From a virus, in the IMG/VR virus record IMGVR_UViG_3300046385_000050, positions 1 through 20,647 of that record: a DNA stretch of 20,647 nt, one strand, 5' to 3'. The first letter of the stretch is position 1, and each line of letters opens with the position of its first letter. This document shows positions 14,855 to 20,647 of this stretch, piece by piece. The notes below the pieces were generated by a model, which worked only from the letters and a program-made list of their open reading frames with translations, did not search any database and was not told the DNA's origin. A program made the translations under genes and the position numbers.

Positions 14855-15556
14855 TTATTTGCGAGCGTTTGCCCGAACTTGGTCGAATGTGATTTCTTTT
14901 ACAAGTTTGCCATCGCGGTATACTTCTTCCAGTACGTTAACAAAGTCACCAATGGCCTTGTCGTGCCATCCGGTTGGGCGAGCAACTGCACTCACATACT
15001 CGCCACCACTCTTCCAAAGTGTAACACGTCCTGCTTTAGACTTTTTACCCGGATCAGTAACAGGATCTTTCTGGACATCTACCCAAGTTCCGTTGATACA
15101 GGCTGAACTTGCTTTTAGGGCAAACTTTTGAGTATCACGATCAATTGCTTGCAGTAGGGCGCCGCCCATACCAAAAGCAATGTTGTCAGCACTCCAGCCC
15201 ATGGCCATGAACGCACCAAGGATTGAGCGAACTGTAAGCTCGTTGATACCATCGCCCTGAATAAGTCTAACATTGTTTAATACCTTGAAGCCCTTGGCGT
15301 TTACTGTGTATCCGAACTTTTCGCCCAAGATCTCAACCAGTCGACGATTAACTTCGACTGGATCGCCGGAGTCAGGACGAATAACGACAAACCCACCAGT
15401 TTTTCCGTGGTCTTCAATCCTCTGTTTGATTTCAATGTCGTCTCCCAACATCTCACAAAACTTAAAAACATCATAAGAGTCTGCTACCATTGCAAAGATT
15501 GCACCTGGTTTAGCAAACTGATCCAGCATATTCATTACATATTTCTTTTCGCTCAT
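14855..15556 (-). CDS. nadV: Nicotinamide phosphoribosyltransferase, C-terminal half (split gene)
   Basis: Its 233 residues align with the second half of NAMPT/NadV from just after the catalytic-His motif. MLDQFAKPG is at 10-18, DSYD at 26-29 (Asp26 matches human Asp279), IRPDSGDP at 59-66 (Arg60 and Asp62 match Arg311 and Asp313 that bind PRPP and nicotinamide), IQGDG at 99-103 and GMGGALLQ at 129-136. It ends like the family (ITFDQVRANARK). It has its own start behind AAAGGAG, and nothing appears lost at the junction: the first nine residues occupy the family's nine-residue linker. With 16785-17495 it would form a two-chain enzyme (469 aa together) making NMN from nicotinamide and PRPP. A hairpin at 15583-15601 precedes it. 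Confidence 0.95.
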   Translation of the reverse strand: MSEKKYVMNMLDQFAKPGAIFAMVADSYDVFKFCEMLGDDIEIKQRIEDHGKTGGFVVIRPDSGDPVEVNRRLVEILGEKFGYTVNAKGFKVLNNVRLIQGDGINELTVRSILGAFMAMGWSADNIAFGMGGALLQAIDRDTQKFALKASSACINGTWVDVQKDPVTDPGKKSKAGRVTLWKSGGEYVSAVARPTGWHDKAIGDFVNVLEEVYRDGKLVKEITFDQVRANARK

Positions 15557-15582
15557 TTTAAAACTCCTTTAAAAATTAAATG

Positions 15583-15601
15583 CCTGAAGTCTATCTTCAG
15601 G
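15583..15601 (-). promoter_or_regulatory. RNA hairpin before nadV C-half, AUAGA loop
   Basis: CCTGAAG and CTTCAGG pair perfectly over the loop ATAGA (minus strand). The stem overlaps the stop region of the endonuclease gene and ends 26 bases before the nadV-C ATG. It could mask or process the message between the two genes, or act as a weak terminator (TTTAATTTTT follows). The loop equals that of the hairpin in the leader of the N-half. Confidence 0.7.
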
Positions 15602-16733
15602 GCTTCCAATCAATGAGTACAAAATTACACCCATTAAAATCTTTACTTTTCTGTCGATCTGATGTAAAGGTAGAACCTTTTATAGCAGATTCCCAGACAC
15701 TAGCCGGGCAGTTGAACTTCTGAATAAATTCTTGCTTACCGCCCCAGAATGTAAATCGTTCAGTGCCATCAGCATTATAGCATATAAACTTTTTATCGTT
15801 GGCCCTTTTGTACTTCTCAGTATCCATTGTACCTTTAGGGATGTTCACAAACTTTTGTTGTTCAATTTCATAAACTGTTGTCCACCCAGTAGTTCCGACA
15901 ATGTGTTGTCTAGGATCAACCAGTTCAGCAAGAACTCTAAAACTTTTACCTGTCAATCGATCTTTGACCATTGTGGTACCGGATCCGTTTGGCAGGTATC
16001 GGTCTTTGTGTGCGTAGTATTCATTCTGAGTTATGTGTTGAGTTATACCCAACACTTTATCATATGCAGTTATTTTTCCTTTGTGAACCCCAGACAAGTT
16101 CTTTGTTATAAACTCATCTTTGGTCACATATTGTTTCTTCCCATCTTTTACTGCTACAATACCACCAAACACTTTTTCGTGTATCGCCGAATTGAAATCT
16201 TCTGTTGGAATCGATGATGTTAGCCCCGTACTATTCTCTCTAACTGACACTCTCCTTGTAGATGCAGTATTATACTTGTCTTTATTAGTACGATATTCTT
16301 CTACACTCACCCGCATTTTATCACCCGCTGTCTTCAAGTATACTTGCACGGAACCCGAAGTCGGGTAACGATGTATAGTTTTATCAAACTGATCAACAGG
16401 TATTCGGGTGAATAATCCGGGAGTTGTTAGTAATTCGACTGCAACCGTTCCTTTTGTACACCATCCAGTTCCACCTAATACAATGTTGTATGTATCACTT
16501 CGTTTAATGAAATCCTCATTCACTAATTCTGCTTCTTTGCGGTCCATATCTTCAAAATTATCATATACGAACAAAATCTCTTTACTGAATACATCTCTTC
16601 CATGTTTAGATAACGCATTTTGGATTCTAGTACCAGAACCCATATATTTGTCATCCAAATTATCGGTGATGTGCTGTCCGATGTAGATTTGATTTGTTTC
16701 TTTATTGGTAATTTTGTAAATAGTATAAAACAT
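15597..16733 (-). CDS. GIY-YIG homing endonuclease inserted in nadV, 378 aa
   Basis: The N-terminal nuclease domain shows YTIYKITNKETNQIYIGQH (the GIY and YIG strands, residues 3-21), then LDDKYMGSGT, the metal-binding Glu region RKEAELVNEDF at 65-75 and YNIVLGG at 82-88. The remaining 290 residues hold repeated modules of the type V-x-D-x-TG...V-x-x-x-EF/EY (for example VKDGKKQYVTKDEF, ITQNEYYAHKDRY, VKDRLTGKSFRV), probably DNA-binding repeats. Such enzymes cut an uninterrupted target allele and are copied into it. AAGGAG precedes the ATG. Base composition is more A+T-rich than the flanking nadV halves (21 of 60 G/C at 16081-16140 against 29 of 60 at 17161-17220), consistent with foreign origin. 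Confidence 0.93.
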   Translation of the reverse strand: MFYTIYKITNKETNQIYIGQHITDNLDDKYMGSGTRIQNALSKHGRDVFSKEILFVYDNFEDMDRKEAELVNEDFIKRSDTYNIVLGGTGWCTKGTVAVELLTTPGLFTRIPVDQFDKTIHRYPTSGSVQVYLKTAGDKMRVSVEEYRTNKDKYNTASTRRVSVRENSTGLTSSIPTEDFNSAIHEKVFGGIVAVKDGKKQYVTKDEFITKNLSGVHKGKITAYDKVLGITQHITQNEYYAHKDRYLPNGSGTTMVKDRLTGKSFRVLAELVDPRQHIVGTTGWTTVYEIEQQKFVNIPKGTMDTEKYKRANDKKFICYNADGTERFTFWGGKQEFIQKFNCPASVWESAIKGSTFTSDRQKSKDFNGCNFVLIDWKP

Positions 16734-16784
16734 ATAAACTCCTTGTTATATTGTATATATACTATTTATGCCGCAGAGCAGTAA

Positions 16785-17495
16785 TTACTTCCCAAAAGAG
16801 GTAGAAATAGAGTGTTCACTTGCTGGAATTGAGAACCCAGCAATGCCAGCATTGTAATACTCACGAGCAAATAAGATACCGCTAATAGTATCTGTGCCCA
16901 TGAAGTTGACCAAGTGGGCTGCTCCGCCGATGCCAGCACTTTCAAGACTCGATACGCCACGAGCACCGAAATCATGTAGTTTAAAATCAATAGCAGTAGG
17001 GTCACCAGTACGCTCCAAATAGTCAAGAATGACTTGTTTAATTGTGTAAGATTGTGTTGCTACAGTAGTACCGTACCACACTGCACGAAGCAAGGCAGTT
17101 TCCAACCAAGTAGTCAACCAGAAGCAGTTGGGGTCTGTGTTTTCGATAGTGGCCAGGACATTTTTGACTGGAACGACTGTTCCTTCTGGCACGGATCGAA
17201 TAACAACTGGGAGGTATCCGTCGCGCTTGTCAAGAATGTACTGCCATCCTGCTCGGTTGAAAGGCTCACCGTGTGCGGTAAGGATTTCATCAGCGATGTC
17301 GATATCTGCTTGAGTGATTGGTTCGAGCAAGTACTCTTTGATAAAAGCCTGGAGTCCGAACATAACTGTTCGATCGTAACGGCCCCCGCGACTCTCGATA
17401 TACGAGTATACACCTGTAGTACCTGCTGGGTATTGTTTGAACATACTGACTTTATAGCTGTCAGTATTAAGTATTAGATTTTTTGCGAGTTTCAT
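16785..17495 (-). CDS. nadV: Nicotinamide phosphoribosyltransferase, N-terminal half (split gene)
   Basis: Its 236 residues match the first half of NAMPT/NadV. They include NTDSYKVSMFKQYPAGT near residues 10-26 (Tyr14 matches human Tyr18), ESRGG, KLHDFGARGVSS at 172-183, GTDT at 200-203 (Asp202 matches Asp219) and PASEHSISTSFGK at 224-236, whose His228 corresponds to the catalytic His247. The frame ends in TAA exactly after this motif, where the family continues without a break; the rest is encoded at 14855-15556. So the active site is divided between two chains. It is the first gene after the promoter at 17549-17577, with AAGGAAC before the ATG and a leader hairpin at 17520-17538. Confidence 0.95.
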   Translation of the reverse strand: MKLAKNLILNTDSYKVSMFKQYPAGTTGVYSYIESRGGRYDRTVMFGLQAFIKEYLLEPITQADIDIADEILTAHGEPFNRAGWQYILDKRDGYLPVVIRSVPEGTVVPVKNVLATIENTDPNCFWLTTWLETALLRAVWYGTTVATQSYTIKQVILDYLERTGDPTAIDFKLHDFGARGVSSLESAGIGGAAHLVNFMGTDTISGILFAREYYNAGIAGFSIPASEHSISTSFGK

Positions 17496-17548: not shown

Positions 17549-17577
17549 ATTATAACAAGGTTTTTGCACCTTGTCAA
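17549..17577 (-). promoter_or_regulatory. Promoter of the nadV operon with inverted repeat in the spacer
   Basis: TTGACA, a 17-base spacer and TATAAT on the minus strand. The -35 overlaps the TGA of the macro-domain gene (17574-17576). ACAAGG (17555-17560) and CCTTGT (17569-17574) form an inverted repeat over the spacer: a possible operator, or a weak terminator for the upstream operon. Confidence 0.9.
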
Positions 17578-18041
17578 CCAAATTCTACCACAGTAACGCT
17601 ACCGCCCTGAGCAGAAACAATGTCATCGAACCACTCTAGTAGTCCCATGATCCGTTGCACATCACCACCGGCTAGGCCCATTCCAATCATAGGAAAGCCG
17701 AAGTTTTTTGTTCCGTATAAGTGCCCAAGTTTGCGAAGGATTAGTTCAAAACTGGTATACTCAAATACATCGTTACTTTGACCTTTTCTGTTAAAGTCAA
17801 ATTGAGTGTAAGCGTTGATAATTGTAAATTTACCTGTATCAAAATCAGTCCAATTACCCAGCTTACCAATGTCACCTGACATGGTTTTTGAGTCTGCTTC
17901 ATATGCACCAGGATATTGTTCTTTGATTTGACGTGCTATACCAGACCCCATGGTGCAGAAACAATTGCAACCTTGTACAATTGCATCAAACTTGCCTTGC
18001 TCGGCAAGTGTTAGGAGGTTGCCTTTAGTCAGCTTTAACAT
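17574..18041 (-). CDS. Macro-domain protein (ADP-ribose binding/hydrolase)
   Basis: A single 155-aa macro domain. After KGNLL, the first ligand loop is QGCNCFCTMGSGIARQIK (23-40), with the family's Asn and the GSGIA loop. A helix with YPGAY follows, and the phosphate loop is PMIGMGLAGGDVQRI (117-131). The compact build resembles ADP-ribose-1''-phosphate phosphatases and ADP-ribosyl hydrolases of the TARG1/Poa1 kind. It would remove or process ADP-ribose from molecules in the cytoplasm. It is the last gene of the unit starting at 18982-19010 and abuts the nadV promoter. Which ADP-ribose substrate it uses cannot be read here; a counter-defence role is inference. Confidence 0.93.
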   Translation of the reverse strand: MLKLTKGNLLTLAEQGKFDAIVQGCNCFCTMGSGIARQIKEQYPGAYEADSKTMSGDIGKLGNWTDFDTGKFTIINAYTQFDFNRKGQSNDVFEYTSFELILRKLGHLYGTKNFGFPMIGMGLAGGDVQRIMGLLEWFDDIVSAQGGSVTVVEFG

Positions 18042-19074: not shown

Positions 19075-19779
19075 ATGTATTTATTCATATACAAGACCAC
19101 CCACAAAAACGGCAAATACTACATAGGTCGCCATCAAACAGATAACCTGAATGACGGGTATCTCGGTAGCGGTAAGTGGGTTTCCGCCATCAAGGACAAA
19201 ACCACACTGACCCGAGAAATCATAGCAGAGGCTAAAACTCTTGAAGAACTTTATGATCTTGAAGAATATCATATTTCTCTCCATTATGGAAAACCAGAAT
19301 GTATGAATATGAAGCGAGGCAGTGACGGCAATACCAGTGAAGATGCTAAAGAGTTCGCAAAAAGAATGATTGAAAATGGAACCCACAATTTTCTTGGCGG
19401 CGATCTTCAACGAAGGAGAATCACTGATGGCACCCACAATTTTCTTGATGGTGAAATTGCTAGTAAATCTAACGCCAAGAGAATTGCTGAAGGCACTCAT
19501 AACTTACAAGGCTCCAACAATCCGACACATCGCAGAATTCAAGATGGCACTTATCATATGTTTGGTGAGAACAATCCTGCCGTTCAACGAGTCAAACAAG
19601 GCACCCACAACTTTCTTGGCCCAAAAAACAATCAGCGAAGGATTGATAATGGTTCTCATAACTTTCTGGGGCCCAGTGCTCCATCGCAATTCGTATGGCA
19701 TTGCGATGCCTGCGGTAAGACAGGCAAGGGTAAAGGAATATTCACTAGATTCCACGGTGTCAATTGCCGCCAATCGTAG
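19075..19779 (+). CDS. GIY-YIG homing endonuclease with six-fold repeat, 234 aa
   Basis: This is the only plus-strand gene. The nuclease domain (1-90) has FIYKTTHKNGKYYIGRH, TDNLNDGYLGSG, the Glu-bearing LEELYDLEEYHI and a conserved Asn in CMNMKRGS. Residues 102-200 contain six repeats of G-T/S-H-N-F-L-G followed by a basic R-R-I segment, spaced 17-21 residues, resembling NUMOD3-type DNA-binding motifs. The C-terminus has Cys210, Cys213, His227 and Cys231, a zinc-finger pattern. GAGGAG lies 9 bases upstream. It overlaps the end of the convergent nadM-Nudix gene by 20 bases. It likely cuts a related phage allele near this locus; the target is unknown. Confidence 0.93.
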   Translation: MYLFIYKTTHKNGKYYIGRHQTDNLNDGYLGSGKWVSAIKDKTTLTREIIAEAKTLEELYDLEEYHISLHYGKPECMNMKRGSDGNTSEDAKEFAKRMIENGTHNFLGGDLQRRRITDGTHNFLDGEIASKSNAKRIAEGTHNLQGSNNPTHRRIQDGTYHMFGENNPAVQRVKQGTHNFLGPKNNQRRIDNGSHNFLGPSAPSQFVWHCDACGKTGKGKGIFTRFHGVNCRQS

Positions 19780-20647
19780 AGCCTACTGCCCATTCAATCA
19801 TGTCGGCGTGATCTTCAAACAGTTCTTCTCTCTTTAGATCAGAGATAGGCCGCCAGAGTGCCTTTTCAGCATCGTCACTGCCTTTTACCTTGGGCAGTTC
19901 ACCATCGGGCAATACAATTTTGAAACAGTGTGTAATGATACGACCACGTGGGCTACGATCCACAGCATCAAACACACGATTGTCAACAATGCTACCACGC
20001 AGTACAGGACCGGGCACTTTAATCATTGTTTCTTCACGCAGTTCACGAATAGCTGCATCTAATACTGTCTTGTCAGTGTTTGCGTTGACGTAGCCACCGG
20101 GCAATGCCCACAGGCCACGGCCAGGTTCAGCACGGCGTTTAATCATCAACACGTGGCCTGAACAGATAACAACCGAATCGGCAGTAGAGAAGATTGGAGG
20201 GTACTTCAAGCTGGCGTATTGTTTGGCGTGCTCAATCAAAAACTCACGTTCACGAATAATCTGTTCGTACTCGGCAGTATCTTTAAAAGCATCCAAGTAC
20301 ACGAATGTAGTTTCAGGAACCACGTTGCGAATGAACTTCATATTGCAATCACGCTTGAAGTACAAGTCACGAATGTTGACTGCACTAAGAGGTTCAATCT
20401 CATCCACGTTCTCGTAGCCCCACTGTGGGAACATATCCAAGTAGAAAGAGCTTTCGTCTTTCTTGTGGCCAATGATAGCAATTCGTTCGCCAGGTTGTGT
20501 ATTCTTGGCAACAATGGCTTGAACACGAACTGCCCAGGCTTGGTCATTGTACATTGTGTCAATGTTGGACTCTACTGTGATTTGCAATGCAAGGCCGGCA
20601 GTTGCGGCCTTGATCATACGTTCGCGCTCTTGCGAAGTAAAGGGGTT
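19760..20647 (-). CDS. Bifunctional NMN adenylyltransferase/Nudix hydrolase, 5' end missing
   Basis: The frame is open to the right edge (295 residues visible). The first visible residues, NPFTSQERERMIKAA, match the NadM segment that follows the nucleotide-binding GRFQPFH-GH region, so the true start is outside the window. NadM marks seen are IGHKKDESSFYLDMFPQW and the SAVNIRDLYF loop. A Nudix domain follows: LWALPGGYVNANTDKT, then RELREET with the catalytic REL-EE glutamates, and HVFDAVDRSPRGRIITH as in the cyanobacterial and phage NadM-Nudix family. The first domain makes NAD+ from NMN and ATP; the second hydrolyses ADP-ribose-type compounds. The Nudix Glu before the helix is replaced by TDK with two extra residues. 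It pairs functionally with nadV. Confidence 0.95.
   Translation of the reverse strand, partial: NPFTSQERERMIKAATAGLALQITVESNIDTMYNDQAWAVRVQAIVAKNTQPGERIAIIGHKKDESSFYLDMFPQWGYENVDEIEPLSAVNIRDLYFKRDCNMKFIRNVVPETTFVYLDAFKDTAEYEQIIREREFLIEHAKQYASLKYPPIFSTADSVVICSGHVLMIKRRAEPGRGLWALPGGYVNANTDKTVLDAAIRELREETMIKVPGPVLRGSIVDNRVFDAVDRSPRGRIITHCFKIVLPDGELPKVKGSDDAEKALWRPISDLKREELFEDHADMIEWAVGSTIGGN

Follow-up and report, generated by a model that had tools for sequence, protein, structure and literature searches.

Results

Organization of the split nadV locus

The window analysed here is an IMG/VR virus contig of 20,647 bases, in which the gene for NAMPT (nadV) lies in two parts on the minus strand, in the order nadV-N, GIY-YIG endonuclease gene and nadV-C. 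The features of the locus are as follows.

14855-15556, minus strand: nadV-C, C-terminal chain of NAMPT, 233 aa, with its own ATG (ORF; Pfam NAPRTase 7.4e-37)
15389-15556, minus strand: downstream arm of the putatively imported (co-converted) tract, nadV residues 237-292, including the GGF insertion (rare residues, identities, informative sites)
15564-15570, minus strand: AAAGGAG, likely ribosome-binding site of nadV-C, 7 nt 5' of the ATG (sequence)
15597-16733, minus strand: GIY-YIG homing-endonuclease gene, 378 aa, between nadV-N and nadV-C (ORF, Pfam, PHROG, homologues)
16739-16744, minus strand: AAGGAG, likely ribosome-binding site of the endonuclease gene (sequence)
16785-17495, minus strand: nadV-N, N-terminal chain of NAMPT, 236 aa (ORF; Pfam NAMPT_N 1.4e-27, NAPRTase 5.2e-14)
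16788-16820, minus strand: upstream arm of the putatively imported tract, nadV residues 226-236 (clustered rare residues, donor-like informative sites)
17574-18041, minus strand: macro-domain gene upstream of nadV (Pfam Macro 1.7e-4, just under the cut-off)
19760-20647, minus strand: nadM/Nudix gene (NMN adenylyltransferase), cut by the end of the window (NCBIfam PRK05379 8e-90)

Domain searches recover both NAMPT_N and NAPRTase. The former and positions 1-59 of the latter fall in nadV-N, positions 63-238 of NAPRTase fall in nadV-C, and the 465 positions of NCBIfam PRK09198 are covered from 3 to 237 by the first chain and from 241 to 462 by the second, so that the two jointly span NAMPT. As the initial annotation had it, nadV-N terminates in ...PASEHSISTSFGK directly followed by TAA, nadV-C starts from its own ATG behind AAAGGAG, the chains add up to 469 residues (236 + 233), and a GIY-YIG gene lies between them, the last point being borne out by the ORF, Pfam and PHROG 314. 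Its further claim that no linker is missing also holds: compared to intact relatives, nadV-C resumes at the codon after residue 236, with Met1 corresponding to one native codon and zero residues lost.

NAMPT is consequently not encoded as one continuous chain in the window, while nadV runs uninterrupted across the break site in all intact relatives checked, i.e. the endonuclease ORF separates two parts of a gene that is continuous elsewhere. Relatives with an intact nadV and no endonuclease at this site, which the initial annotation had suggested searching for, do exist, with 96% (N part) and 88% (C part) identity in the nearest, L005/L085. Outside the junction, both halves match the consensus of close relatives and therefore do not represent a chance pattern of ORFs. 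The same split is present almost letter for letter in three other IMG/VR contigs from other metagenomes, which speaks against assembly error as its source; these near-identical contigs make the window lineage one population.

In intact relatives, nadM, a small ORF, the macro-domain gene and nadV occur in the same order as in the window, placing the insertion in an NAD salvage and ADP-ribose module. The gene belongs to the same family and fold as phage NadV/NAMPT associated with NadM (PMC9503650), Xcc NAMPT (7yqo) and human NAMPT, and shares its neighbour gene with the first of these; in one survey, every phage with NadM also had NadV (PMC9503650). Its intact relatives are ordinary NadV/NAMPT members, from which the window differs in having two chains rather than one. 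Namat (NARP1) is the less likely identity, as both the nadM/Nudix partner and the closeness of the match to NAMPT favour NadV. A related phage pathway is known to act against NAD-depleting defence (PMC12774641); for the module of the window, such a role is only a possibility. We also note a second GIY-YIG gene (PHROG 314) in opposite orientation (19075-19779, plus strand), located between nadM and small ORFs and containing repeats of the type NGTHNFLG; in intact relatives the small ORF directly follows nadM at this place.

Position of the break and retained residues

Residue 236 is equivalent to Lys255 of human NAMPT, hence the break falls between Lys255 and Asp256, eight residues past the equivalent of the catalytic His247. 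In an AlphaFold2 model of an intact relative (pLDDT 95.4), to which Xcc NAMPT is the closest solved structure (TM 0.94), this places the break at a loop/helix boundary, behind the three residues of loop 233-235 and ahead of the first turn of helix 236-250. Modelled alone, nadV-C of the window reaches a mean pLDDT of 89 and begins with the helix that starts at the break.

The equivalents of human Tyr18, Phe193, Arg196, Asp219 and His247 are located in nadV-N, and those of Asp279, Arg311, Asp313, Gly353, Asp354, Gly383 and Gly384 in nadV-C. The initial annotation had stated that all known catalytic residues are retained, with His in the first chain and Asp/Arg in the second. This stands for the residues listed in PMC3665594 that could be checked, all of which are present (Asp219 and His247 in chain one; Asp279, Arg311 and Asp313 in chain two), but not for the equivalent of Ser275 (window residue 261), which is near-invariant in intact relatives and Ala in the window. 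This position is Ala or Gly in all five split genes, and Ala also in intact L139 and L157, while the Asp279 equivalent is Asn in split L155 and L156. A few intact relatives show the same changes at the Ser275 and Asp279 equivalents, which are thus not necessarily incompatible with function.

The endonuclease

The window endonuclease matches Pfam GIY-YIG weakly (4e-4, below the curated cut-off) and the homing endonucleases of PHROG 314 well (2e-34), and the Tyr, Gly, Glu and Asn motifs of the GIY-YIG catalytic domain are invariant across five homologues. Its N-terminal GIY-YIG domain is about 60% identical to domains of Vibrio and Rhizobium phages and is shared with the free-standing homing endonucleases of the T4 type (Seg/GIY-YIG, PHROG 314), from which it is set apart by its C-terminal 290 residues. 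The latter have almost no match in cultured phages, with one weak match away from nadV, and all full-length relatives found lie at or beside nadV. The enzyme is predicted to be active with specificity for this site. Megablast of the window against cultured phages gave zero matches. A late-promoter-like ATAAATA precedes the endonuclease gene in the window, at a frequency not above chance. The window does not support an RNA hairpin masking the start of the endonuclease gene in the manner of mobE (z +1.4), while the corresponding stretch of L155 folds well (z -4.0).

Recurrence of the split in other lineages

Using first the junction peptide and then the endonuclease as query, we identified homologous endonucleases that split nadV at the same position as in the window in three divergent lineages, L155 (64-kb contig), L156 and L158 (55-kb contig), with 70%, 49% and 41% identity, respectively, to the window endonuclease. 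The L156 arrangement recurs on two further contigs, and a fourth breaks off within the endonuclease. The gene junctions are tight: the endonuclease stop overlaps the ATG of nadV-C in L156, and in L158 the endonuclease ends one base before it. L155 shares with the window a nearly identical intergenic non-coding stretch before nadV-C, including the ribosome-binding site AAAGGAG and the ATG. Searches for a second nadV on the split contigs (12-87 kb, all from metagenomes and none complete) found none.

In a fifth lineage, L160 (87-kb contig), both nadV ORFs are open in different frames and the endonuclease is absent. The N chain ends in the tail ...RDCSFTLIDWINQNE, the stop of which overlaps the ATG of the C chain. 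Within this tail, CSFTLIDW resembles the endonuclease C-terminus; an equally high score is reached only by endonuclease tails among the 2664 ORF tails taken from all loci, and L156 has the same tail motif at the same distance from the same stop/ATG overlap. The simplest reading would be that the endonuclease was deleted in L160 and the split gene retained.

Other arrangements were encountered around nadV. L167 (1514-4099) has a related endonuclease (43% identical to that of the window) directly upstream of an intact nadV, possibly a non-splitting neighbour form. In L206 (2300-5301), two GIY-YIG genes, resembling that of the window in the N-terminal domain only, lie downstream of an apparently intact nadV. 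L147 and L148 were rejected as split candidates, both being intact, and so was L311 (2995-4400), in which the endonuclease is absent and nadV carries a frameshift shortly past the junction region rather than at the split site, through sequencing error or decay. PHROG 16547 and 15800 are short families named nicotinamide phosphoribosyl transferase, and might hold fragments from other phages.

A probably imported tract around the junction

Relative to 71 close intact relatives, 31 residues of the window NadV are rare or unseen, of which 28 are located within residues 226-292; random placement never brought more than 15 into such a stretch. Informative sites are 23 donor-like to 6 recipient-like inside this interval and 4 to 124 outside, a division unmatched in 20,000 permutations (0/20,000). 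The same tract limits result from L155 and L156, and similar but weaker ones from L158 and L160; intact controls show no tract there. The limits adjoin two of the most conserved motifs, which may be natural places for strand exchange.

Over the tract, from PAxEHS to just before RPDSG, the best match of the window is L155 (71%), followed by L156, both split, whereas outside it the best match is intact L085 and L155 ranks 113th of 139, with 48% identity between window and L155 in the C part. These tract identities derive from anchored pairwise alignment; the full multiple alignment misplaced a gap in the tract. The window, L155 and L156 share the GGF insertion, the MSE start and the motif CE(M/L)LGxDxEIK, up to 55 residues from the break, and intact L157 comes closest to the tract over the first 26 residues only. 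The dN between window and L155 is alike for tract and endonuclease (0.19 and 0.22), with synonymous sites saturated, indicating that the split architecture is old.

In a tree of the nadV core, in which L160 and L155 have long branches, the five splits are scattered over five positions, monophyly being rejected (p-AU 3e-6); p-AU is 2e-78 for a clade of the window, L155 and L156 and 0.07 for a pair of the window and L155. In the tract tree (reduced set, 68 columns), the five splits form one group (SH-aLRT 99), and with these 68 columns grouping with the own clade is rejected for the window (p 0.02) and unrejected for L156 (p 0.11) and L158 (p 0.39). A shared tract origin may, tentatively, extend to L158 and L160.

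The findings fit the behaviour of a homing element: unrelated backgrounds carry the same element at one site, relatives have this site empty, and the flanks are co-converted. It seems that the split spreads ready-made by homing with co-conversion, the donor chain ends travelling with the endonuclease.

Constraint on both chains

The pN/pS of split genes against their nearest intact relatives is 0.16-0.30 for the N part and 0.22-0.49 for the C part, similar to the medians of intact pairs (0.27 and 0.42), in agreement with the earlier claim that the halves are conserved. For the window against L085, omega is 0.06 (N) and 0.08 (C), compared to 0.05-0.10 in close intact pairs. Over the divergence between the window and L155, reading frames, ribosome-binding site and ATG have all been kept, which, together with the endonuclease-less L160 that keeps both ORFs, favours a working two-chain NAMPT; the four further split lineages, one of them split without endonuclease, back reassembly into an active enzyme.

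Discussion

Based on the locus, its relatives and the junction tract, we propose the following account, to which we assign a probability of roughly 0.8 as a whole. A free-standing GIY-YIG homing endonuclease would have inserted in a phage nadV right after the codon equivalent to human Lys255, past the catalytic His, with the cassette bringing, besides its own gene, a stop codon, a ribosome-binding site and an ATG, such that chains of 236 and 233 residues result. The two chains very likely co-fold as one NAMPT subunit and would then dimerise as usual for NAMPT, giving a working enzyme that presumably feeds NadM in NAD salvage. The split of the window probably arrived ready-made, as homing would have copied the endonuclease along with donor coding sequence on either side, about 33 nt upstream and about 170 nt downstream, and the new chain ends would come as a matched pair through the copied donor flanks. 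The split, the insertion, the mosaic tract, the recurrence, the endonuclease-less relic and the constraint on both chains are read directly from the sequences, from which chain assembly and enzyme activity are inferred; that the two-chain NAMPT works is very likely.

Splicing would restore one message and one chain if the insert were an undetected self-splicing intron with an endonuclease ORF. GIY-YIG endonucleases are often encoded within group I introns, the halves join exactly, and some phage introns have gone unrecognised, as in the interrupted tape-measure gene of ICP1, spliced according to RNA sequencing (PMC10448857). Yet Rfam gave no intron family in the insert at either gathering or permissive thresholds, the endonuclease ORF leaves just about 90 nt of it uncovered, and nadV-C has a ribosome-binding site of its own, kept in L155. 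The overlapping or nearly abutting genes of L156 and L158 and the insert of L160, too short for an intron core, appear to leave no room for a mobile group I intron, for which neither core nor splice sites were recognised. A split intein was likewise rejected, because the chains stop and start exactly at the junction with zero extra residues. With no Rfam match, little spare sequence and no intein residues, a single spliced protein is unlikely, and we regard the intron as very improbable. A less improbable, still unlikely explanation is that the insertions were independent and the new chain ends then adapted convergently, which would account for the common junction segment: new termini alter local selection, L158 and L160 are only weakly tied to the other splits, and the tract tree comprises 68 columns. 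Against this, the window, L155 and L156 hold the insertion, start and motif described above in common, tract identity between window and L155 far exceeds that of the C part, tract and endonuclease have diverged alike, and even the non-coding stretch before nadV-C is nearly identical in these two. On balance, we lean towards a homing endonuclease that spreads a ready-made two-chain NAMPT among distant phages in one recombination step, with the two-chain form able to outlast the endonuclease. Each homing event would thereby bring in the endonuclease, the stop and start codons, the ribosome-binding site and both matched chain ends at once.

It is also conceivable that the split nadV is dead or dying, its halves being functionless remnants of selfish endonuclease spread. 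Phages can tolerate losing an accessory NAD gene, the Ser275 and Asp279 equivalents are substituted, and the branches of L155 and L160 are long. We nevertheless consider decay improbable, given that both ORFs are open in five lineages with saturated synonymous sites, that pN/pS equals that of intact pairs, that the translation start of nadV-C is kept in the window and L155, and that L160 has retained both ORFs after losing the endonuclease. Slightly less improbable would be that both chains are expressed and needed and their task has changed, e.g. in substrate preference or regulation, in line with the altered Ser275 equivalent in five of five splits and with the substrate switch of related phage enzymes (Namat, PMC12774641). 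On the other side, the neighbours nadM and macro are the same as in intact relatives, two of which have Ala at this position as well. A two-chain NAMPT that retains its usual task is the reading we prefer.

Gene fission by a free-standing homing endonuclease is a known kind of event. The likeness to phage Aeh1 drawn in the initial annotation is apt: in nrdA/mobE, a free-standing endonuclease likewise sits in a critical part of a metabolic gene and yields two chains, with no intron or intein (PMC2988022), and the split ribonucleotide reductase is active (PMC2988022, PMC3653736). The target and the endonuclease differ, NAMPT and GIY-YIG in the window versus ribonucleotide reductase and the HNH enzyme mobE in Aeh1. 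Unlike the Aeh1 case, the nadV split recurs at one site, has an imported junction tract and occurs once without endonuclease, and its product is predicted to be active. Fission associated with an endonuclease also affects the T4 topoisomerase large-subunit gene (mobA), where two polypeptides must reassemble (PMC2988022), again with another target and endonuclease; a similar fission in Aeromonas phage 25 (gene 43 with a seg-like endonuclease; PMC2988022) is less clearly caused by the endonuclease. A NAMPT split in this manner was absent from the open papers of a non-exhaustive search, in keeping with the initial annotation, to which no such case was known, and also from a 60-row spread, likewise not exhaustive, of 1913 nadV records of cultured phages. 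The novelty would appear to lie in the enzyme that is targeted, in the fact that five lineages are split at one site, in the imported junction that they share and in the split relic lacking an endonuclease.

Interruptions of another kind were observed in two cultured phages. In Staphylococcus phage vB_SauM-T-SE-G2 (OR640350; L346:1495-3885), nadV has an intein-like in-frame insert of about 300 aa at VVIRPD|CYDEETEV...VCGN|SGDP, i.e. the Arg311-Pro-Asp313-Ser site, which looks like another mobile element aimed at the NAMPT active site. In Vibrio phage ICP1 isolate 2017_Dha_N (MW794162; L349:1636-3032), a tandem duplication of about 77 nt spanning the catalytic-His segment breaks nadV into two annotated ORFs; this segment is uninterrupted in two other ICP1-type records.

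Fission by a selfish element is known mostly from single cases. Here, one site offers the intact gene, the split gene with the element, the split after loss of the element and a related element beside an intact gene, making it possible to compare and test stages of fission within a single enzyme of well-known structure. A homing element may, by carrying matched chain ends, spread protein fission horizontally. Since NAMPT is targeted by drugs and NAD salvage in phages has a bearing on NAD-depleting defence, a natural two-chain NAMPT would be useful for enzyme work and phage biology.
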